Positions 2 to 39,710 of a stretch of 39,710 bases of DNA are shown here, one piece after another. A model generated the notes under the pieces. The model ran no database searches. It was given only the letters and a program-made list of their open reading frames with translations, and was not told where the DNA came from. Position 1 is the first letter of the stretch, and each line of letters begins with the position of its first letter. This DNA comes from Alphaproteobacteria bacterium (GTDB lineage: Bacteria; Pseudomonadota; Alphaproteobacteria; Rickettsiales; VGDC01). The stretch is taken from the NCBI GenBank assembly GCA_022450665.1, contig JAKUPQ010000012.1, positions 1-39,710 of the forward strand, written 5' to 3'. The position numbers and the translations under genes are program-made.

Positions 2-2914
2 GGGTTGTGGTGTTCAGGAGGTAAAGCACGGGGATCTGTAACTGGATTTAGTCCTATTTTAGATGCAGCGCAAACGCCTTCTACCGCCACATGGTATCAT
101 TATGCATATACTTTCGACGATGCAACAAATACGCAGAATCTATATATTAATGGTACACTAGCGCAAACTGGCACAACTAATAGTTCAATTGATTATAACA
201 ATTCACCTTTATCTCTAGGCGTAGAGTTTGAACAGCCCGGCGGCGCAAACCCCCAATATCATTTAAATGGTCTAATGGACGATGTGCGCATTTACGATAA
301 TGCCTTAACTGCTACAAATATTTCTGAGCTTTACGGAAACTTTTTCACCGTTGCAGGCATAGAAAAAATGTCGACAACTGCTGATGTGGCTATTCAGGCA
401 ACGAATTCAATTACGCTGGATTTACAAGGCGATACCTTGGATATGGCAAACGACCGTAATCTTAGCCTCACTACGACCAGTGGCGATATTTTAACGGCCT
501 CTGCCGGTAAAATCACCACCAACCGCACAGGTACGGGCGGCAATGTGACCTTTGATGCGGGGCGGGATATTTTGTTTAATCACGCGATTGATATCGAAGC
601 GCAAAATGGCGGAGATGTCAGCTTTAAAGCCAATCGCCATATTGTGATGGGCGCTGGCGGTACTATTGAAAGTTTGAGTAACCCTTTAAATACTGTGTTT
701 TGGAGCGATGCCGATGCAGATAATGAAGGCGCCATCAGACTTGTGGGCAACACAATTAATTCCCTAGGTGGTGACGTAATCATGGGCGGCGGATTAGATG
801 ATGGTGCGAATAGCGGTACCGCCAGCGATGGCCGACCCGATAATTTTGCGCAGGCCACAAATGTCGAGCAAAAAGGCATTTTCTTAGATGCCACTACAGT
901 ACAATCGCAGGCAGGCGATATTTTGCTGCGAGGCAATGCTGCGTATGATGTGGCCTTAGGTGAAGGCTATTATGGGATTCGCACATTTAATAATTCGGTG
1001 CTTGAGTCTACCTCTGGAGATATCAGCCTTATCGGGAAAACCATTGGTAAGCGCGTAATTTGGGGTATGGAAATAAGAGATACTACAATAGAGAGTCAGA
1101 CTGGCGATATTTTATTTGATGGCGATGCTCAAGGTACAGCAGACAAGGTTGTTGGGGTGGATTTCTTCTCTTCGGACGTGGAATCTACTGGCATAGGTGC
1201 AAATGCAGGAAATATTACCTTAACTGGTAACTCTGTTGGTTCGCAAGACGGGGCAGGTGTTCGATTCTGGCAACAAAATACTTACCTTATGACTACAGAT
1301 GGTGATATTTCAATTACCGGTACTTCTGATACGGGCGATGGAGTGCATCTAGCGCGCAGTAGATTAGCATCTTACGGAACAGGTGCGAATGCTGGGAATA
1401 TTAGCGTTACTGGTACTGGTGGAGCCTTAGGAGTAGGCATTTACAGCTTCGGTGGAATTCCTTTTCAAATTTTTAATAAAGATGGTGATGTTACCATTAA
1501 CGGCACATCTACTGCTACATCAGGCGATGGTAATTATGGTGTGGCATTAAATGACTACCGTATATATATGGAAGGCACGGGTAGTGGCCCGGATGCCGGA
1601 ACAATTTCTATTACAGGAACCGGCGGCGCAGGGGTGAATAACAACCACGGCGTATATATGTTCTTTGATAAGTTTTCATATTACGACCTGCTAGACAATG
1701 ACTTAATTGTTAATGGTACAGGCGGCGGTGACGGTACAGGTACTAATAACCATGGTATATATGTAAGAACCCCATTCGACATTGAAAGCACTGGAACAGG
1801 TGCTAATGCAGGAAATATTACCTTTACCGGAACGGGCGGCACAGGCACGACGGATAACTACGGCGTAAAGCTGGAAAATGGCGTAATGAAAACTGCCGAT
1901 AGTAATATTACCATTACTGGCACCGGAGGTACTGGCACCAGCAATAACCATGGGATAGCACTGATTAATTCTGCAGAATTAACCACCACAAATGGCGATA
2001 TTTCACTTACAGGTAATGCTGCTTCTGGCACAGGGTTATACTCTCTCACAGGTGCCAATGTAATAGGTGACGCAGCGATGACAGGAGATATTACTCTGTC
2101 TGGCACCTCTACAGACCTGCGCGACATCGCTATCACCAGCCTTGCCAATATTACTATGACGGCCACCAATGCCATGGAATTTACAGCGGCAAACATTAAT
2201 GCCAATACGCTGTCTATGACTTCTACCGCAGGTGCAATTACTCATAATTCAGGTATGCTTACCGCACCTACGCTCAATTTTGACGCCGCAGGGATTGTTA
2301 CTGCTAACCTAACCAGTAATACCGTTGATATGGGAGCGAATGCTACAGGATCTGTACTAACAGGCTTGGTTAATGGTGCCACAGATCAGGCAGCGGCTGA
2401 TAGCATCCTTGGCGGTCCTGGTAACGACCCAGCCTATACATTTGAAGGGCTAACCATTCGTTATGCAGCGCCCGCACCTGCGGGAACACCGTGCGTAACC
2501 CGTCCACCTTTGCCAGAAACTCCTGCACCAGAAACTCCAGTGTTGCCTCCGGTAACGCCCACACCTAAGCCTACAACGCCGGTAAGCCCTAAGCCGAATC
2601 CAACCCCAGTGATTGCGACACCGCTTACGCTTCCTAATACCGTGGTGTATGTATCGCAGCACCCACATGTAGGTATTTCTACTACAGAACCCGGCAGCAC
2701 AAACCCTGTAAAAGAAATAGGAAGAACTACCTTGCCCGCTTCACCTAATGCTGCTCCTGAAAGCAATACAGATAATGCTACAGACAAAGAAGAAGAAACC
2801 GCAGTTAAGATTAAAAGCAATAAAAATAAGCTGTCCGGGCTTACGAGCGGGTTGCTGAGGTTAAGTCCTAAACTCGCTAAGATTCTTGGCTATAGTAAAG
2901 GTGAAGTATTCTAA
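2..2914 (+). CDS. Large repetitive surface/secreted protein, LamG plus hemagglutinin-like repeats (5' end missing)
   Basis: The reading frame is open to the left edge, so the N-terminus (signal and any secretion domain) lies outside the window; about 970 residues are visible. Residues 1-115 look like a LamG/concanavalin-A-like jelly-roll domain, with features such as WYHYAYTFDD, LYINGTL and MDDVRIYDNALT. From about residue 120 to 830 come beta-helix-type repeats rich in Gly, Thr, Asn and Asp (GDILFDG, GANAGNITLTG, TITGTGG), as in filamentous-hemagglutinin-like exoproteins. Then comes a Pro/Thr-rich linker (PETPAPETPVLPPVTP) and a basic C-terminal tail. There is no C-terminal autotransporter barrel, so two-partner secretion or type I export is more likely; that is inference. 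The probable role is adhesion or an extracellular matrix protein. Family level is fairly sure; ligand and exporter are unknown. Confidence 0.75.
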   Translation, partial: GLWCSGGKARGSVTGFSPILDAAQTPSTATWYHYAYTFDDATNTQNLYINGTLAQTGTTNSSIDYNNSPLSLGVEFEQPGGANPQYHLNGLMDDVRIYDNALTATNISELYGNFFTVAGIEKMSTTADVAIQATNSITLDLQGDTLDMANDRNLSLTTTSGDILTASAGKITTNRTGTGGNVTFDAGRDILFNHAIDIEAQNGGDVSFKANRHIVMGAGGTIESLSNPLNTVFWSDADADNEGAIRLVGNTINSLGGDVIMGGGLDDGANSGTASDGRPDNFAQATNVEQKGIFLDATTVQSQAGDILLRGNAAYDVALGEGYYGIRTFNNSVLESTSGDISLIGKTIGKRVIWGMEIRDTTIESQTGDILFDGDAQGTADKVVGVDFFSSDVESTGIGANAGNITLTGNSVGSQDGAGVRFWQQNTYLMTTDGDISITGTSDTGDGVHLARSRLASYGTGANAGNISVTGTGGALGVGIYSFGGIPFQIFNKDGDVTINGTSTATSGDGNYGVALNDYRIYMEGTGSGPDAGTISITGTGGAGVNNNHGVYMFFDKFSYYDLLDNDLIVNGTGGGDGTGTNNHGIYVRTPFDIESTGTGANAGNITFTGTGGTGTTDNYGVKLENGVMKTADSNITITGTGGTGTSNNHGIALINSAELTTTNGDISLTGNAASGTGLYSLTGANVIGDAAMTGDITLSGTSTDLRDIAITSLANITMTATNAMEFTAANINANTLSMTSTAGAITHNSGMLTAPTLNFDAAGIVTANLTSNTVDMGANATGSVLTGLVNGATDQAAADSILGGPGNDPAYTFEGLTIRYAAPAPAGTPCVTRPPLPETPAPETPVLPPVTPTPKPTTPVSPKPNPTPVIATPLTLPNTVVYVSQHPHVGISTTEPGSTNPVKEIGRTTLPASPNAAPESNTDNATDKEEETAVKIKSNKNKLSGLTSGLLRLSPKLAKILGYSKGEVF
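1191..1995 (+). repeat. Degenerate Gly/Thr/Asn repeat block inside the adhesin gene
   Basis: The coding sequence carries several diverged copies of a unit encoding roughly S-T-G-x-G-A-N-A-G-N-I-x-x-T-G-T-G-G, followed by a short N-N-H-G-[VI] segment. Copies start near 1188, 1371, 1569, 1791 and, in shortened form, near 1717 and 1894. At DNA level the phrase ggtgcnaatgcnggnaatatt recurs at three sites. The copies are diverged, so this is old intragenic duplication rather than a recently expanded satellite. Confidence 0.65.
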
Positions 2915-31737: not shown

Positions 31738-33618
31738 ATGATAAAAACACCAAAATGGTTGGAGCGACTTACTGCCGGCGGCATAGCTGCGTCGATAATT
31801 GGTGCCGGAACGAATGTTGCCGACCATTTGTTTAACCATTATGGCGATGCTGGCAAACCCGGCGCGGTAATGGATTTGAACGAAAATAATGGCATGCTGG
31901 TGCGTGACATTAGTGGCAAGCCTGCTTTCTCCAATTATTTTAAAAGCGATGATCCTTCGGATATGCGCATAAGCATAAGCATCGCTACCGATGAAGAAAT
32001 TCCCGAAAATTTTACAAATAAATGGGGGCAGCTCACAAAACTGCGTCAAAAAAATATTTCTTCCCGACTTCCTTCTGAAGACTTTCGGCCTATTTCTCCC
32101 CAACTTGCAGAAGTTATTGAAGATACATATGCGCAAATAACAAAGTTTACGAATATCAAATTTGATGTGCAGCACAATAATAATGATGCCGATATAATTG
32201 TTGGGGGCTACGCCACAGATACAACAATTACTGGATTCGCCAGTTTTCCGCAGGAGCTGTTGAAGGGGTTAACCCGTAAAAAAGATGAACAAGGCTTTTT
32301 GATTCTTAATGCGGCAGAAATGGATAGAAGAATTGATAGTGGCAATAAAGACGGTGCGATGCACACGATTGCCCATGAAATTGGTCACAATTTAGGTATA
32401 CTTCATCCATTTGATCGCCATGTAGATACCGCACTTACTGACCATCAGCAAGAAGCTATATCTACCATGGCGTATACAAGCTCCACACAAAATAGCATTG
32501 CTTCTACTGATATAAAATCTGGCTATGGCGCGTTGGATATTAATATCTTGCGCAAAGCAGTAGTAGAGCTAGGCGGCGAGGTGCCAAAGCTGAATGAGGA
32601 AAATAACACCTATTCTTTAGGCCAACTGGCTGAAGACCAGCAGAAGGATACAAAATCAACCTTTGGCGGAAGCGTATATTCGCTACCTGCTGCCACGGTA
32701 GTGGATAATGGTGGCGCCACCAATACACTCACGGGAACATCAGGCGATGACTTGCTGGTAACCGAAGCTGGAGATTGCGGGCTTATTAACCGTAACGATA
32801 AAAAAGCACGTATTGAGCGTGATGGGCAAGCCTATTGCCTTGTGGAGGGGGAGTTTTCGATCATTAAAAGCGGCTCTGGTGATGATCTGATTATTACTGC
32901 CGCAAACGAAGAACAAACCGTTTATACCCGAACGGGCAAGCAAGATGTTGCCGTATTTGAGACAGGTGACCTCACCCTTTCTGCCTCACCCCGTATAGAG
33001 GCATATGAAGATAAAAATATAGCGCAACAACTAACAAGTCTTTTCGCTGACCCTGTAACAGCAGGTGGCAATCGTGGAAAAGAAGACCTGACTTCCATAA
33101 CGCTGCATCATTCATTGTTTCAAGATGCGGATGCAATGGCGCATGAAGAAGGTAATGACATAAAAATTAATTTTACAGCAGAATCCGGACGTGACACAGG
33201 TTCCATTACAATCAAAAACCAAACATTAGATTTGCAGGGTGTGGATCAGCTACGTGTAATTAACGACGAAGGCGATGTGATTTCACAAATTGATAGCTTT
33301 GATTATAAAACCGCAGAACAATGGAATAGCGATGTGCTTGCACCAACCCAACAAGCGGTACTTGCATACCAACACCAATTGGATGCGAGTGAACAGGATC
33401 GCGACTCGGAAGATACAGTTCGAGGAGCAATGCAGAAATATGTTGGAGCTCAAGGGGTATGGACAAGAGTACCAACGAATAATGGCAATTCACATACAGC
33501 CGAAAGCGGCGCGCCTCCAATAAAGAAAGATGCGGATGCTGTGAATGAGCTTCCATTTGCCACAAGAATTACAAGACAAAAAAACGAGGAAAGAAATGGC
33601 TCAACAGTTTCAATTTAA
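31738..33618 (+). CDS. Metzincin-type zinc metalloprotease with RTX-like segment (serralysin-like)
   Basis: A 626-aa protein. The zinc site HEIGHNLGILH is at residues 213-223 (HExxHxxGxxH), with the Met-turn STMAYT at 242-247, so this is a catalytically plausible metzincin near M10/serralysin. A hydrophobic Gly/Ala stretch at residues 11-25 is not a classical signal peptide. Residues 325-400 contain two RTX-like half motifs (LTGTSGDDLLV and IKSGSGDDLIIT), separated by an insert bounded by C347 and C367. The rest (400-626) has no recognised fold; the end is charged. Ribosome site agga is seven bases upstream. The last 23 bases overlap the next gene, a paralogue. It is probably exported (inference from RTX-like motifs). 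Substrate unknown. Confidence 0.8.
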   Translation: MIKTPKWLERLTAGGIAASIIGAGTNVADHLFNHYGDAGKPGAVMDLNENNGMLVRDISGKPAFSNYFKSDDPSDMRISISIATDEEIPENFTNKWGQLTKLRQKNISSRLPSEDFRPISPQLAEVIEDTYAQITKFTNIKFDVQHNNNDADIIVGGYATDTTITGFASFPQELLKGLTRKKDEQGFLILNAAEMDRRIDSGNKDGAMHTIAHEIGHNLGILHPFDRHVDTALTDHQQEAISTMAYTSSTQNSIASTDIKSGYGALDINILRKAVVELGGEVPKLNEENNTYSLGQLAEDQQKDTKSTFGGSVYSLPAATVVDNGGATNTLTGTSGDDLLVTEAGDCGLINRNDKKARIERDGQAYCLVEGEFSIIKSGSGDDLIITAANEEQTVYTRTGKQDVAVFETGDLTLSASPRIEAYEDKNIAQQLTSLFADPVTAGGNRGKEDLTSITLHHSLFQDADAMAHEEGNDIKINFTAESGRDTGSITIKNQTLDLQGVDQLRVINDEGDVISQIDSFDYKTAEQWNSDVLAPTQQAVLAYQHQLDASEQDRDSEDTVRGAMQKYVGAQGVWTRVPTNNGNSHTAESGAPPIKKDADAVNELPFATRITRQKNEERNGSTVSI

Positions 33619-35302
33619 AAATAATAACTATGAATACCTTATTGCTAAAGCCAGTGGGCAAACGCACATATATCTTCCCGGTGGTGGTGGCGGTGGCGGC
33701 GGATCTGGCGGCGGTATAATGGCGGGTATTGCTGCCACTGTGGCAGCAGGGGCTGCAGCATTGGGTCTGGGCATTGCAGGACACGATCAGAATCAAGATC
33801 CCAGGGATATTGAAGAGCTTACCAAATTTGATAAAGGTGAAGAACCGTTGAAAGATTCCAATGGGGATCTTGCCTTTGCCAATTATTTTGAGGACGGCGT
33901 AGCCGATGAAGATAAGGTGCTCAAGGTAAGTCTTGCCACCAAGCTACCTCAGGAGTTTAACAATGGTACACAAATTGGCGATTACCTTGATTCGGTAGTA
34001 AATAATTCCCGCAGCCACACCACACGCGTAGAGCCATATTGGACAACGGTGTGCCACACCCGTGGCAGCGGAGAAACCACATATACTGAGTGCACCCCTG
34101 AGCTTCGCACACGTATTGTGACGGATCATCACCACTATAGTGAACGGTTGGATATAGATAGCGATTTTCGACCAACCACCGAGGCACAAAAAGAGCAACT
34201 CGAAAAATATTTTGAAGCATTTTCTGACCTTACCGGCATTAAAGTAGAGGTGGGAGAGAATTTAGAAGATGCAAATATATATATCGGTAATTTTTCTAAT
34301 CCACCCAACAACTATCGTGGCCGGTTGGATTATGTGGATCCATCGTTTGTGGCAAGCTACCCCGAAGGTTCAGTGACTGACAGAGGCCCGGGTTTCGAAC
34401 GCAATGTGCTTTTGCTCAATGATATGAACAGAGCCCACGATGAAGGGTTGGGCGAGCATATAGGACGCCCTTTAGGGTTTGAAAGCGGCAAAGTAAATGG
34501 TGTAACGCTGCGTGATTCACTTAAAAAGATGGGTTTCCCCGTTAAAGCTTTGGCAGTTGAAGACAATGTCTATGATGCGGAGAATATTCCTAACGTTAGC
34601 CCGGAATTGGTTGATAAAAATGTAGTGGCCGATGGTGGTGGTGTAAACAAGCTGATAGGGACCGATGGCAATGATGTTCTGGTGGTTGGTGAAGATGAGT
34701 GCGGCTATACCAAAATGCCGAAAAACAAGCTAACCAATATTGCATCAAATGGCAAAAAATACTGCATTGCAGAAGGAGACATAAGCGTTGTAAAGGGGGG
34801 TGAAGGTGACGACTTGCTTATAATTGATAAAGGCAGCGACACCACATTTGAAACCGGACCGGGCGATGATCGTATTACGCTGTATCGCAGCAATATAGGC
34901 AATGCCACAATTTTGTCTAACCCAGATGAAGATGGCAAAAATACGCTGTATCTCAGTGAAAGAAATGCCAGTCGGGGAGAAATCGTTGCCAATATACAAG
35001 AAGGCGAAATGGAGTTGAACTTTATCGAGAACAAGCATGTTGTCGGTACGGTTACCTTACCCCATCAAACCGAGGGCGGAGGAATTGATAAGATCGCCGT
35101 GGTAAAGGATAATGGAGATGAAATTTTCAAAACTGATGTAAAGAACATCACAACCGCGCAAGAGATGAACGAGAAAGTCTTGGAGCCAATGGCACAAGAA
35201 GTAAAAGCGCATATCGCAGAGCAAAATGCACAAGCTGCGCCTGGTAGATGGAGTATGAAAATACAAGATATAAAGGACATAGGCCCTAAAGTGCAGCTAT
35301 AA
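33596..35302 (+). CDS. Inactive paralogue of the upstream metzincin (pseudoprotease) with poly-Gly linker
   Basis: A 568-aa protein starting at the ATG at 33596, with gagga five bases upstream, inside the end of the protease gene. A poly-Gly tract (about residues 29-40) leads into a hydrophobic segment (IMAGIAATVAAGAAALGLGIAG) that could be a membrane helix. It shares with its neighbour the motif LAFANYFEDG (AFSNYFKSD there), a long middle region, and the paired RTX-like motifs LIGTDGNDVLVV and VKGGEGDDLLII around cysteines 369 and 390. Where the protease has HEIGHNLGILH this protein reads EHIGRPLGFES: all three His positions are changed and the Met-turn part is missing. It may be a partner, inhibitor or scaffold for the protease. 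Confidence 0.75.
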   Translation: MAQQFQFKNNNYEYLIAKASGQTHIYLPGGGGGGGGSGGGIMAGIAATVAAGAAALGLGIAGHDQNQDPRDIEELTKFDKGEEPLKDSNGDLAFANYFEDGVADEDKVLKVSLATKLPQEFNNGTQIGDYLDSVVNNSRSHTTRVEPYWTTVCHTRGSGETTYTECTPELRTRIVTDHHHYSERLDIDSDFRPTTEAQKEQLEKYFEAFSDLTGIKVEVGENLEDANIYIGNFSNPPNNYRGRLDYVDPSFVASYPEGSVTDRGPGFERNVLLLNDMNRAHDEGLGEHIGRPLGFESGKVNGVTLRDSLKKMGFPVKALAVEDNVYDAENIPNVSPELVDKNVVADGGGVNKLIGTDGNDVLVVGEDECGYTKMPKNKLTNIASNGKKYCIAEGDISVVKGGEGDDLLIIDKGSDTTFETGPGDDRITLYRSNIGNATILSNPDEDGKNTLYLSERNASRGEIVANIQEGEMELNFIENKHVVGTVTLPHQTEGGGIDKIAVVKDNGDEIFKTDVKNITTAQEMNEKVLEPMAQEVKAHIAEQNAQAAPGRWSMKIQDIKDIGPKVQL

Positions 35303-35411: not shown

Positions 35412-36044
35412 ATGCCAACGCTGGAAAAACTAATTGATGGATTTAAAGTCTACAAAGCTACTACCTATCAGAAAGATAGGGATTTAATAACCCATCAGCT
35501 CATGGCGAATATTCAGCCTAGCACCCTTGTGATTACCAGTAGTGATTTGCATATCGCCCCAGAGATGCTAACCGGATGTACCCCGGGAGACATGTATGTG
35601 ATTCGTCTTAAGGCGGGCATTGTGCCACCATTTGTACAAAGCAAAGTCAGCGGATTCACGGCTACGCTCGAATTTGGCGTCATGAATTTATCGGTAGAAA
35701 ATATTATTGTGCTAGGGCATAGCCATAATGATGGACTGCAAATGTTGCTCGATGGCGGCCATTACACTACCGATTCAGATCCGCTACGTGCGTGGCTGGG
35801 CCATGCGCATGATGTATATGAAGCGGTAAAAAAGGATATGGCAAGCCATAGCCGCGAACAACAGGAAAAGGCAATGGAGCTGGAAACTATTGTTATGAAT
35901 ATCCGCAATCTATTTACCTATCCGTGGATTAATGACCGCATTCAGGAAAATAAGCTGGAGATATATGGCTGGCACTTCGACATTGAAGATGGCACATTGC
36001 TTGGCTACATGCCCACTACAGGGCATTTTGAGGCGTTTGAATAA
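35412..36044 (+). CDS. Beta-carbonic-anhydrase homologue lacking the zinc cysteines
   Basis: A 210-aa protein with the overall beta-carbonic anhydrase layout: helix N-terminus, ITSSDLHIAPE (41-51) where the family has I-x-CSDSRV, PGDMYVIRLKAG for the GD-x-FVxRNAG segment, ATLEFGVMNLSVENIIVLGHSHNDG (83-108) ending where the family has GHSxCGG, and a C-terminal IYGWHFDIEDGTLLGYMPTTGHF. H103 is kept, but the zinc cysteines are Ser43 and Asn106; the catalytic Asp is kept (D45) and the Arg is His47. Canonical zinc binding is therefore unlikely. It may be a pseudoenzyme or use other ligands. The next gene is convergent. The start has only a distant aaaggg. Confidence 0.8.
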   Translation: MPTLEKLIDGFKVYKATTYQKDRDLITHQLMANIQPSTLVITSSDLHIAPEMLTGCTPGDMYVIRLKAGIVPPFVQSKVSGFTATLEFGVMNLSVENIIVLGHSHNDGLQMLLDGGHYTTDSDPLRAWLGHAHDVYEAVKKDMASHSREQQEKAMELETIVMNIRNLFTYPWINDRIQENKLEIYGWHFDIEDGTLLGYMPTTGHFEAFE

Positions 36045-36060
36045 CGTATTAAACGTTATT
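36040..36060. terminator. Palindromic hairpin shared by two convergent genes, stop codons within the arms
   Basis: Arms aataacg (36040-36046) and cgttatt (36054-36060) pair perfectly over seven bases (tattaaa). The TAA of the carbonic-anhydrase-like gene lies in the left arm and, on the minus strand, the TAA of the 107-aa gene lies in the right arm. The plus strand later has an attttt run (36070-36077). It could serve as a weak two-way terminator. Confidence 0.45.
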
Positions 36061-36379
36061 GTTCCCAAAAAATATTTTTCGGCTTAGCGGTTTCCACAAG
36101 AATCTTTTTGACAGATTCCATGTGCAATGCGCTTTGCGCAGGAATAAACATGCTCACCACCGATGTGTCTTTCATGGCTTCGCGCAGTTGCGCTACGGAT
36201 ATTACTGTAGGCAGGTTATAGGCCTTTTTAAGCTGGCGAATTTCCCACCCTTCTTTAATGCCATAAATATGTGTGCCCATCACTTCGGTTATCAGGCTGT
36301 TTTGGGTGAGCTGTATATACGCTTGCGCGGTAGCCAGCTTCTCCAGTTCTGCATCTGTGGCGGTTGCGTTATTTATCAT
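36056..36379 (-). CDS. Hypothetical 107-aa protein coupled to the MoxR-like ATPase
   Basis: Family not recognised. A soluble protein with an alpha-helical N-terminus (ELEKLATAQAYIQLTQNSLITEVMG) followed by a mixed region (IYGIKEGWEIRQLKKAYNLPTVISVAQLREAMKD, in pieces) and a strand-like SVVSMFIPAQS. Its ATG overlaps the TGA of the upstream AAA+ gene (ATGA), so translation is coupled and the product is probably needed in proportion to the ATPase. It may be an adaptor or regulator of the ATPase; that is inference from position only. Confidence 0.65.
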   Translation of the reverse strand: MINNATATDAELEKLATAQAYIQLTQNSLITEVMGTHIYGIKEGWEIRQLKKAYNLPTVISVAQLREAMKDTSVVSMFIPAQSALHMESVKKILVETAKPKNIFWEQ

Positions 36380-39222
36380 CTTATTGCCCCTTGCTCTGCT
36401 GCTTTGTCTGAGCCAGCCAAGGCACGTGCAGAGTTTTTGAACTCTTGTAGCGCATCGCTTTCTACTAGCATTACAGGTGTTCTAAACTCGGTTGCGGTTA
36501 GCTGATCTTTGTCGTTGCTTAGCACAGAAACCAAATTTTCTTTGTGCTTGGAATTATCTGATGGGAGCAAGCGATCTGCAATGCTTTCTTCATTTGGGTG
36601 CGGAAGGATGCTATCACGTTTATCATCTGCATTTAAACGTTTAACCATTAGCTCAACAATAGCAGAATGCACGTCCTCGGCTTTACCAGTGGGTGTATCC
36701 TTGTTCATATCGACATCACACAGCAGGCCGGAAAGCGCATCGCCAATGGTTTCTTTTGCTGTATCGCTGTTGCGGTTTACATAGGTAACTCCTGTAGATT
36801 CCAGCGCTTTTTTGAGCGGATCAGATATATCAACAGAGCCTGTAACCAAGGTTTGCCCACGGCCATTATCTGCATTAGCGTTATTGATTACATATAAAAA
36901 CTCATCGCGATCTTCGCCTTTGTCATCCTTGGTTTTTACATTCACCATAGTTGCGGCCACACCGGTTTTGGATGTGTTTGCGGAGATTATATGAGTGGGG
37001 GCATCAATATCTTCTTCTGTGGTGAGTGTATATTCGTTGAAAATACTATCTATTGCCTGTGATTTTAGTTGCGGAATGGCCAGCGAAATCAAATAGCTTT
37101 CGGCGTCGGCAAGCTTACCAGATGGCAGACTGGTAACATCTTCGAGCGGCTTTTCTTCTTGAATAATCTGCTGACGTTTTTGCGCGGCGGGGCTGCCATC
37201 TTTTAGATTAACTTCATTAGTATGGGTTTCTACACTAATGACGTCATGAAGTCCTACTTCTTCAGAATCGCTATAGGGTGTTGCAAGCTGCATTTCGGCG
37301 GTGCGCAAGGTGAGGCGGTCTACGCCTTTATCTTCTGATACACGTGTCAAAGCTAAGGCAAGGCCATTGGGGCTGACAATTTTATCATCGGGAGTATCGG
37401 GCGAAATATCGGGATTATTTTTGCGTATATATTCCACCAATAATTCTTGCGATGCTTTTAGGTTATCTGGCAGGTCAACCTGTTCTGATTTGTCTGCGTT
37501 CAGCAAATTAGCAATCAGATAATCTTCATTTAAATCGATCTCATGCTTGTTTTTTGGAACGGTAATGCCATGCTCGGCTGCCTGATGCAACAGATAGGCC
37601 TGTAATTTTGGTTTGCCTTCAGTTGTAGTGGATATTTCATTGGCAATAACATCTGCTAAGCGTTGACCATAATCGCGCGCTGCATGTTCATCTTCAACGG
37701 GATATTGCCTTTCAAGCGTGGTGAGGTCAAGATCGGGATCCATCTGCTCGCCCCCATCATCTTTGGTGGCTTTTGGCTTAACAACTAAGGCGTCATCCAT
37801 GTGTTTCATCATTTTGCGCATACCAATGGCGGTGCGTGCGGCATAGCTTGAATCTATTTCTGCAAGAATTCCGGCATCGTACGCCTCGTCGTCATGCGCC
37901 GCATACTCTTTATGCAAATCTGAGTTAGGATTTATGATTTGCGACCATTTGTCATAGAATCCGGCTAGCTGTCCGGATGCTTTATCCACATCCTGCCAGT
38001 TTTCAAGCATTTGCATTTGCAGTGCGGGTACGGCTTCTTTTTCTTCTTCAGTAAGGCCGCGCATACGATGGGAGGCCAACAAGCGTGAGAATTTATCAGG
38101 GTCTTCATCAATAGTATCTTTTTGCGATTGATACAGCGTTGATACGGGCAGCCCCGTGATTTTCTGACAAATACGTGCCTGTATATCCTGCTCCGTAGGC
38201 TTACCAATCACATGCGCGTGCATACGGTCATAATTAGACTTCGATAAATCATGGGTAGAATAACCATCCTCGGCTAAGTTGCCGGTAAGCGAAAGCATGA
38301 AATTATCGCCTAGTTCTGAATTTCTAACGGTTAATGATAAGCCACCTTTTGAAAGGGTGCATTCGCTTTTTCCTCCGTTTATTACCTCAAGTATAACTTG
38401 CAGTTTATCTTGCGTGCCAATTTGGGCCTTAGTGTATTCATCGCCAATTATGGGTCGATCTTCAATGATGGCGTTTGATAATGCACCAAACTGCAATTTA
38501 AGCCCTATGGGATTCTTATCGGTATCAATACCTTCTGCTTTTGCCACCTGATTAATTATAGATAGAATGTGTTCGTTATGCGCTTCAGCGGCGGCTTTAT
38601 CTTCCTTTGATGCATCGTCATCGGGAGTAATAAAACGAACATTTTCCCAATCTACCGAAGCTACACCATCGCTATTTGTACTATAAGCATTCCCCAACGC
38701 GTCTTTAAGTGACTTTCTTGAAACGCCGTTCAATCCGCCATCCGCCATTTTTTTATCAAGCTGGTCGTAAACACTTTTACTTTTATCCTGATCCAACACA
38801 GTTTCGAAAAGCAAGTCGCCTAAGTCACGACCGCTACAATCGGCAAATATTGCGCCATCTTTAGAGCGCAAATTTGCGTGATGCTGCGCCATAAAAGTTT
38901 TGCCGGATCCAGGCTCACCCAATATCAACTCTAATCTATTAATGGGCTTATTAGGGGTGACAGATTTGGGTTGGCGTTGTAAATGCCCCTCTTTATACAT
39001 CGCAAGCATACTAGGAGTAGGTAATTCACGGATTACTTTGCCAAAAACTACATTGGCATCTTGATCGGAATGAATCTCTATAAAACTTTTATTGCCTTTT
39101 AAAACGCCGACTTCAGCAGTTCTACCACTGGTCGCGTCTTTGGGGTCGAGCGTCATGGGTATAGGGGTGTTGGTGGTACCAATTTGAACAATATGACGTT
39201 TTGCTGTTTCAGTAGGCTTCAT
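36376..39222 (-). CDS. Large MoxR-like AAA+ ATPase (948 aa) with long uncharacterised C-terminal region
   Basis: The N-terminal part carries an AAA+ module of MoxR/AAA_5 type: Walker A GEPGSGKT near residue 106, Walker B RPIIGDEYTKAQIGTQDKL near 258 (compare MoxR DEINRAPPKTQ), sensor-1-like FMLSLTGNLAEDGYS near 305, then SNYDRMHAHVIGKP (compare the LDRF-GYP of MoxR). The C-terminal 550 residues are acidic, largely helical-looking and match nothing I recognise; this is far longer than usual MoxR proteins (about 320-350 aa). No membrane segment. Ribosome site atagga is upstream. The gene before it encodes a vWA domain, the classical MoxR partner, which supports the assignment. Role: probably a remodelling chaperone; substrate unknown. 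Confidence 0.75.
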   Translation of the reverse strand: MKPTETAKRHIVQIGTTNTPIPMTLDPKDATSGRTAEVGVLKGNKSFIEIHSDQDANVVFGKVIRELPTPSMLAMYKEGHLQRQPKSVTPNKPINRLELILGEPGSGKTFMAQHHANLRSKDGAIFADCSGRDLGDLLFETVLDQDKSKSVYDQLDKKMADGGLNGVSRKSLKDALGNAYSTNSDGVASVDWENVRFITPDDDASKEDKAAAEAHNEHILSIINQVAKAEGIDTDKNPIGLKLQFGALSNAIIEDRPIIGDEYTKAQIGTQDKLQVILEVINGGKSECTLSKGGLSLTVRNSELGDNFMLSLTGNLAEDGYSTHDLSKSNYDRMHAHVIGKPTEQDIQARICQKITGLPVSTLYQSQKDTIDEDPDKFSRLLASHRMRGLTEEEKEAVPALQMQMLENWQDVDKASGQLAGFYDKWSQIINPNSDLHKEYAAHDDEAYDAGILAEIDSSYAARTAIGMRKMMKHMDDALVVKPKATKDDGGEQMDPDLDLTTLERQYPVEDEHAARDYGQRLADVIANEISTTTEGKPKLQAYLLHQAAEHGITVPKNKHEIDLNEDYLIANLLNADKSEQVDLPDNLKASQELLVEYIRKNNPDISPDTPDDKIVSPNGLALALTRVSEDKGVDRLTLRTAEMQLATPYSDSEEVGLHDVISVETHTNEVNLKDGSPAAQKRQQIIQEEKPLEDVTSLPSGKLADAESYLISLAIPQLKSQAIDSIFNEYTLTTEEDIDAPTHIISANTSKTGVAATMVNVKTKDDKGEDRDEFLYVINNANADNGRGQTLVTGSVDISDPLKKALESTGVTYVNRNSDTAKETIGDALSGLLCDVDMNKDTPTGKAEDVHSAIVELMVKRLNADDKRDSILPHPNEESIADRLLPSDNSKHKENLVSVLSNDKDQLTATEFRTPVMLVESDALQEFKNSARALAGSDKAAEQGAIR

Positions 39223-39257
39223 GGTATTTTTCCTATTAAATATGCCGGTTCTGGTGG

Positions 39258-39710
39258 CTATCTTTCGTTTACTTCCAAGCCGCCTCTTTCTACAGAAAAC
39301 GCGGTCGTGAATCTATCATAATGGGTCATTTTTACGCCTTGTGGAATTGCAGGCGCCACAATGCTTTGTTGAATGCGGTTGGTAAGTTTGCTTAGCTTCA
39401 TTCTTTGGGCATCACCCGTGGTGGAGTTAGTGCCGGGGCATTCTTGTTCTTTGTTTGTTGCGACAGAAACGGAATTTCCATGGCGCTGCTCAAGGCCTTT
39501 TGCCATTATTTCCATATCGGTTACTTTTTTGTAATTAATTATGGCAAAGTCAAGGCTTGCATTGGGGCAGGTTTTTAAAAACTTGCTGAGAACTACTTTT
39601 GATTGCTCCGTGTCACCTAAATCTCCATCTGACACAACGGTAATATGCGTGTTGCCCACCATGGTATCACTGCTTGGGCCAGTATCCCGAAGCATGTCGA
39701 TAATGCTGGG
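39258..39710 (-). CDS. vWA-domain protein, C-terminal part (cut by window edge)
   Basis: The frame is open to the right edge, so only the last 150 codons are visible. The segment THITVVSDGDLGDTEQSK, followed by LDFAIINYKKVTDMEIMAKGL, matches the central and later strands of a von Willebrand A domain (hydrophobic strand, S-D-G-D, then a second strand). The metal-site DxSxS of such domains would be upstream, outside the window. The end is basic with a protein-interaction character. It is 35 bases upstream of the MoxR-like gene on the same strand. MoxR ATPases are commonly encoded beside vWA proteins and act together in complex maturation. Confidence 0.65.
   Translation of the reverse strand, partial: PSIIDMLRDTGPSSDTMVGNTHITVVSDGDLGDTEQSKVVLSKFLKTCPNASLDFAIINYKKVTDMEIMAKGLEQRHGNSVSVATNKEQECPGTNSTTGDAQRMKLSKLTNRIQQSIVAPAIPQGVKMTHYDRFTTAFSVERGGLEVNER

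Follow-up and report, generated by a model that had tools for sequence, protein, structure and literature searches.

The window, by which we mean the whole stretch of DNA analysed, is the entire contig C12 (39,710 bp) of a 2.48-Mb, 99%-complete alphaproteobacterial assembly. An operon of three genes was found at one of its ends, and the features used in the analysis are as follows.

39258..39710, minus strand: 3′ end of a metallopeptidase-vWA partner gene (150 aa), a 5′-open frame covering the second half of the vWA domain and the tail
36376..39222, minus strand: AAA+ ATPase of 948 aa, by ORF, motifs and a midasin AAA profile match (E 1e-17)
AAA protein, residues about 50-340: AAA core, by motifs and profile
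AAA protein, residues 102-109: Walker A, GEPGSGKT
AAA protein, residues about 258-262: Walker B, IIGDE
AAA protein, N315 and R333: sensor-1 and the Arg beyond it
AAA protein, residues 340-948 (window 36376..38205): family-specific C-terminal region
36056..36379, minus strand: third gene, 107 aa, an ORF with homologues of 99-136 aa in 11 further loci
35412..36044, opposite strand to the operon: beta-carbonic anhydrase, downstream of the operon
31738..33618 and 33545..35302, plus strand: two overlapping paralogous genes of 626 and 585 aa, metzincin-like/RTX-like

The vWA frame sits 35 nt upstream of the AAA gene, which in turn overlaps the 107-aa gene by the 4 nt ATGA (36376..36379). Because the contig is exactly the window, the vWA gene is truncated at the contig end, and its missing 5′ part was not found on any other contig of the assembly. 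The three genes are not chance ORFs, since each has homologues or profile matches: the AAA protein is matched along its full length in other genomes (for instance 31% across some 800 aa, E 4e-96), the 107-aa protein is 33% identical to its counterpart in genome G001 (E 2e-17), and the 150-aa vWA fragment matches its family profile (E 3.4e-15) and shares 45% identity over 40 aa with a protein of genome G006. The three genes and their ATGA overlap had been called in a sequence-only reading, whose description of them proved exact; its assignment of the upstream gene to the vWA type also held. The complete partners in relatives carry a C-terminal MIDAS vWA. At the other contig end, a 5′-open 970-aa frame (window 2..2914) has a laminin-G-like lectin domain.

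Some 15 alphaproteobacterial genomes keep the partner, AAA and small genes together as a unit. The first homologues came from two related genomes, G001 and G006. With a two-row profile, the AAA gene was detected in 10 genomes out of 344 from the order, and in 5 further genomes of 385 sampled across the class with a 13-row profile, one of these matches being weak. A genome-collection scan with a four-row vWA alignment yielded 13 loci, partly coinciding with contigs already found in the genome searches and including REEB114, Micavibrio sp. UBA6147, and horse-gut, rumen and other alphaproteobacterial MAGs; a scan of the collection contigs with the single window protein gave no match. The neighbourhood survey that the sequence-only reading had proposed showed the three genes recurring together, also in Micavibrio and gut MAGs. 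Complete loci usually begin with a long vWA gene of 860-1105 aa, continue with an AAA gene of 860-1160 aa and end in a gene of 99-136 aa; at L038 to L040 the AAA gene comes first, before the vWA gene, and the small gene was not recognisable at L017, L022, L033 and L040.

Divergence of the AAA and vWA proteins was correlated across their identity matrices (r 0.83; reached in 0 of 5000 permutations), a correlation that owes part to common taxon history. The two trees agree with strong support on the pairs L017+L028, L018+L020 and L031+L032. The first two of these pairs each span different families, and genome G253 carries two distant copies of the operon, a pattern that fits transfer or old paralogy. 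The operon looks accessory.

The Walker A motif, the Walker B DE, the sensor-1 Asn and the Arg beyond it were kept in the AAA homologues covering these sites, with a family Walker A of GxPGxGK[ST] and GAPSIGK in some members. The AAA family profile matched midasin AAA modules at E 1e-17 and MoxR, represented by one reference sequence, at E 7e-6. The window protein scored 12 bits against Pfam AAA_5, below the cut-off of 22, and the family reached E 4e-4 at best, so that no curated Pfam cut-off (AAA_3 or AAA_5) was attained; single-sequence searches of Pfam, NCBIfam, PHROGs and PADLOC returned nothing beyond weak AAA matches to the ATPase. Motifs and profiles together support placing the ATPase with the MoxR/dynein-midasin kind of AAA+ proteins, in agreement with the MoxR-type core proposed earlier.

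An AAA C-terminus enlarged to some 600 aa was seen in this operon family only, and its conservation across the family marks it as a family trait, not a feature peculiar to the window protein. The sequence-only reading, which had called it huge and acidic, overstated the matter: residues 340-948 hold 112 D+E vs. 66 K+R, which is acidic, not extremely so. The structure prediction that it had called for was run with AlphaFold on these 609 residues (pLDDT 67, pTM 0.49), and the model gave no confident Foldseek fold match. Its best five matches were all CE-clan cysteine proteases (e.g., the Wolbachia CidB DUB and Legionella RavZ; E 0.12-0.38); as conserved Cys/His catalytic residues were not found in this region across the family, the similarity is a lead only. 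G006 (L028) has no small gene and an AAA gene of only 476 aa, which may mean that the C-terminus is not essential or that this copy is decaying. One in-frame TAG was observed in the AAA homologue of L043 (G345), which may reflect an assembly error or decay of this copy.

In relatives, the partner is a protein of 860-1105 aa in three parts, an N-terminal HExxH domain, a charged linker and a C-terminal MIDAS vWA. The N-terminal region spans about 420 aa, with the downstream E lying within FDEAEN or WNACEDN, and the H, E, H and downstream E were invariant in 12 of 12 aligned sequences. The linker (130-350 aa) is rich in G, Q, E and K, and the vWA carries D.SGSM and SDGD motifs, its MIDAS being intact in most family members with residues varying in some. 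AlphaFold modelled residues 16-430 of the L034 partner with confidence (pLDDT 90.7, pTM 0.87) as a sheet of three short strands followed by the HExxH helix, a zincin-like core. Foldseek matched parts of this model to a viral SprT peptidase (probability 0.92) and to the minimal metallopeptidase selecase (probability 0.85, rmsd 3.6), and no match to the whole domain reached E 0.001. DUF2201 (PF13203), a lead suggested by the HExxH motif, was not supported as the identity of the partner, with no PF13203 match in any of 7 members and none in G000. The truncated copy in the window does not include the 5′ half of the gene, so homology is the sole basis for assigning a metallopeptidase part to this genome. 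An invariant HExxH and E in a fast-diverging protein are as catalysis would predict, and the invariant HExxH is no proof of catalysis by the partner.

The small third protein, whose gene stands after the AAA gene in the 11 further loci, was likewise seen in this operon family only. Its family motif is Y.(x5)GW..., and the window protein terminates in KNIFWE. Searches of Pfam, NCBIfam, other databases and the PDB gave no match, and neither VMAP nor iSTAND was matched.

Ank or LRR repeat genes lie directly downstream of the operon in several loci and have segments in common; the positions of the encoded proteins are as follows.

L019, 13213-17377
L031, 16037-18853
L033, 16048-17508
L017, 5985-7562
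L025, 2248-4965

The segment common to these proteins reads '...LELA...G.L..VF.P.LW...M..LW..VP' and is helical-repeat-like without a clear family. A separate gene of 222-271 aa occurs in or near the operon at L018 (7562-8377) and L020 (1-666), 42% identical across two bacterial families; it has HEIAH (HDLAH in L020) and may encode a second metallopeptidase-like protein. In the window, the 626-aa paralogue contains HEIGHNLGILHPFDRH, which is metzincin-like, while the 585-aa paralogue seems to have no zinc motif and RTX-like remnants occur in both. The same pair adjoins the operon in G001 (L027), 37-38% identical, and is convergent to it in both genomes of the window's family; as regards an operon substrate or process, the two proteins are candidates only. 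No fixed metalloenzyme neighbour was seen across the loci, no obvious defence genes were found in the neighbourhoods read, and no structural phage genes were noticed next to the loci.

From the partner's N-terminal HExxH domain, linker and MIDAS vWA, we predict a unit that couples an AAA+ ATPase to a small protein and to a metallopeptidase-vWA protein, and we consider it somewhat probable that the three genes specify a machine which remodels proteins at the expense of ATP and carries its own protease. The ATPase would form a ring of the MoxR/midasin type, onto which the partner would dock through its C-terminal MIDAS vWA, and the long flexible charged linker would join the docked vWA to the N-terminal zinc-metallopeptidase-like domain with its HExxH and downstream Glu. 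The energy of ATP hydrolysis would serve to remodel a dedicated substrate, or to pull on it, so that the putative protease could clip it. Choice of this substrate may fall to the large AAA C-terminus and the third protein, joined in some loci by the Ank/LRR repeat proteins. The MoxR-vWA chaperone scheme put forward in the sequence-only reading was right in outline but missed the HExxH domain fused to the vWA in relatives; with this domain, the likely mechanism shifts from a pure chaperone to remodelling plus proteolysis.

A pure assembly chaperone, with an AAA-vWA pair acting on a target that forms a complex or holds a metal centre and an HExxH domain that binds metal or substrate with no cutting, would agree with the intact MIDAS of most members and with the characterised MoxR-vWA pairs of the papers found, which act as chaperones or metal inserters (e.g., PMC9976466, PMC13036017, PMC10585395). 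Yet no fixed metalloenzyme accompanies the loci, and the HExxH and E are strictly invariant despite fast divergence, and we hold this reading to be rather unlikely. Still less probable is a conflict or defence system, a MoxR-vWA ternary threshold switch with the metallopeptidase or a linked Ank/LRR protein as effector. Such systems are already known (PMC7159879), and the patchy distribution (10 genomes among 344 from the order), the sister copies in different families, the two distant copies in one genome and the variable repeat proteins downstream all point in this direction; against it, PADLOC gave no match, VMAP, caspase and trypsin components were not found, the neighbourhoods read showed no obvious defence genes, and the large N-terminal domain is conserved and not a swapped effector.

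The best structural and profile relatives of the operon proteins are phage CobT/CobS-like pairs, for which virion assembly has been suggested (PMC7824862), so a phage-derived module kept for assembling a virion-like or other large particle was weighed as well. The loci have no structural phage genes noticed beside them, and no sequence-level match was obtained in 50,697 phage records or in viral contigs, and this reading seems very improbable. A divergent cobaltochelatase CobS/CobT is hardly credible: the weak CobT matches are confined to the MIDAS region, with 16.7 bits against TIGR01651 CobT vs. a cut-off of 759, the AAA profile matched CobS just at E 0.05, and the genome has separate cobS and cobT genes, paired on C16, indicating that the operon is not the cobaltochelatase. 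The remodelling protease thus remains our preferred reading. More tentatively, and with doubt prevailing, it may represent a class of AAA+ protease not described before, present in alphaproteobacterial cells, with ATPase and zinc peptidase on separate chains joined via a MIDAS vWA arm, unlike Lon, FtsH and Clp, with a dedicated adaptor gene, with Ank/LRR proteins as exchangeable substrate adaptors, and of common ancestry with the phage 'CobST' annotated as cobaltochelatase.

No named family in PADLOC, PHROGs, NCBIfam or Pfam covers the operon, consistent with the earlier impression of an unrecognised three-gene form. Like midasin/Rea1, whose AAA modules the AAA profile matched, it pairs AAA with a MIDAS vWA, but it has a single AAA core per polypeptide, and the vWA lies on another chain that also bears a metallopeptidase-like domain. 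NorQ/NorD, CoxD/CoxE and RavA/ViaA also combine a MoxR-type AAA with a vWA partner in one operon, whereas their neighbourhoods differ and the 600-aa AAA C-terminus is absent from those pairs; none of them is known to have a metallopeptidase domain. RavA and ViaA were compared through Pfam models, and neither the RavA LARA domain nor the ViaA N-terminal domain matched in family members. Cobaltochelatase CobS/CobT resembles the operon in having an AAA and a vWA protein with an acidic linker, but the CobT N-terminus is without HExxH in the sequence read. MoxR-vWA ternary conflict systems (VMAP, iSTAND, FtsH, beta-propeller; PMC7159879) are likewise patchy and consist of MoxR, vWA and a third gene, while the third protein of the operon family is one of 100-110 aa without VMAP or iSTAND match and without a PADLOC match.

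The closest known kind is the phage pair of 'CobS' and 'peptidase/CobT' in jumbo phages and cyanophages, to which the fused HExxH domain links the operon. Jumbo phages of group 2.2 encode MoxR and N-terminal metallopeptidase-vWA pairs, with a proposed role in virion assembly (PMC7824862), while viral cobST has been read as cobaltochelatase and the peptidase annotation called mistaken (PMC8651126). In the phage proteins compared (cyanophages including P-SSM4, and Ochrobactrum phage OC), the partner combines HEVGH...N..ED.RIE (HE..H, ED.R(IE)) with a charged linker and, at the C-terminus, a MIDAS vWA bearing D[WY]SGSM (DWSGSM), and lies near a MoxR/CobS-like AAA+, as in the operon family. A phage CobT-like protein ranked first in Foldseek with the partner N-terminal model (probability 0.99, E 0.086, TMq 0.35), and hhalign, whose E-values are those of single comparisons, aligned the AAA family with phage CobS at E 6e-7 and the vWA family with phage CobT at E 2e-4, the reversed control being negative (E 0.64). 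Tblastn against 50,697 phage records and against plasmids gave no homologue, matches to phages at E 2-8 being noise, and neither did viral contig scans. In contrast to the phage pairs, the operon is cellular and shows no tblastn-level similarity to them; its AAA is larger (about 950 aa vs. 310-360 aa), as is its metallopeptidase domain, and it adds a small third gene and, in some loci, Ank/LRR genes. If active, it would be a bacterial ATP-dependent proteolytic machine with substrate docking via a midasin-like MIDAS arm. It would also bear on whether the widespread phage 'cobS/cobT' genes encode a cobaltochelatase (PMC8651126) or a metallopeptidase chaperone pair (PMC7824862), and the conserved HExxH...E with a predicted zincin-like core in a cellular family favours the latter.
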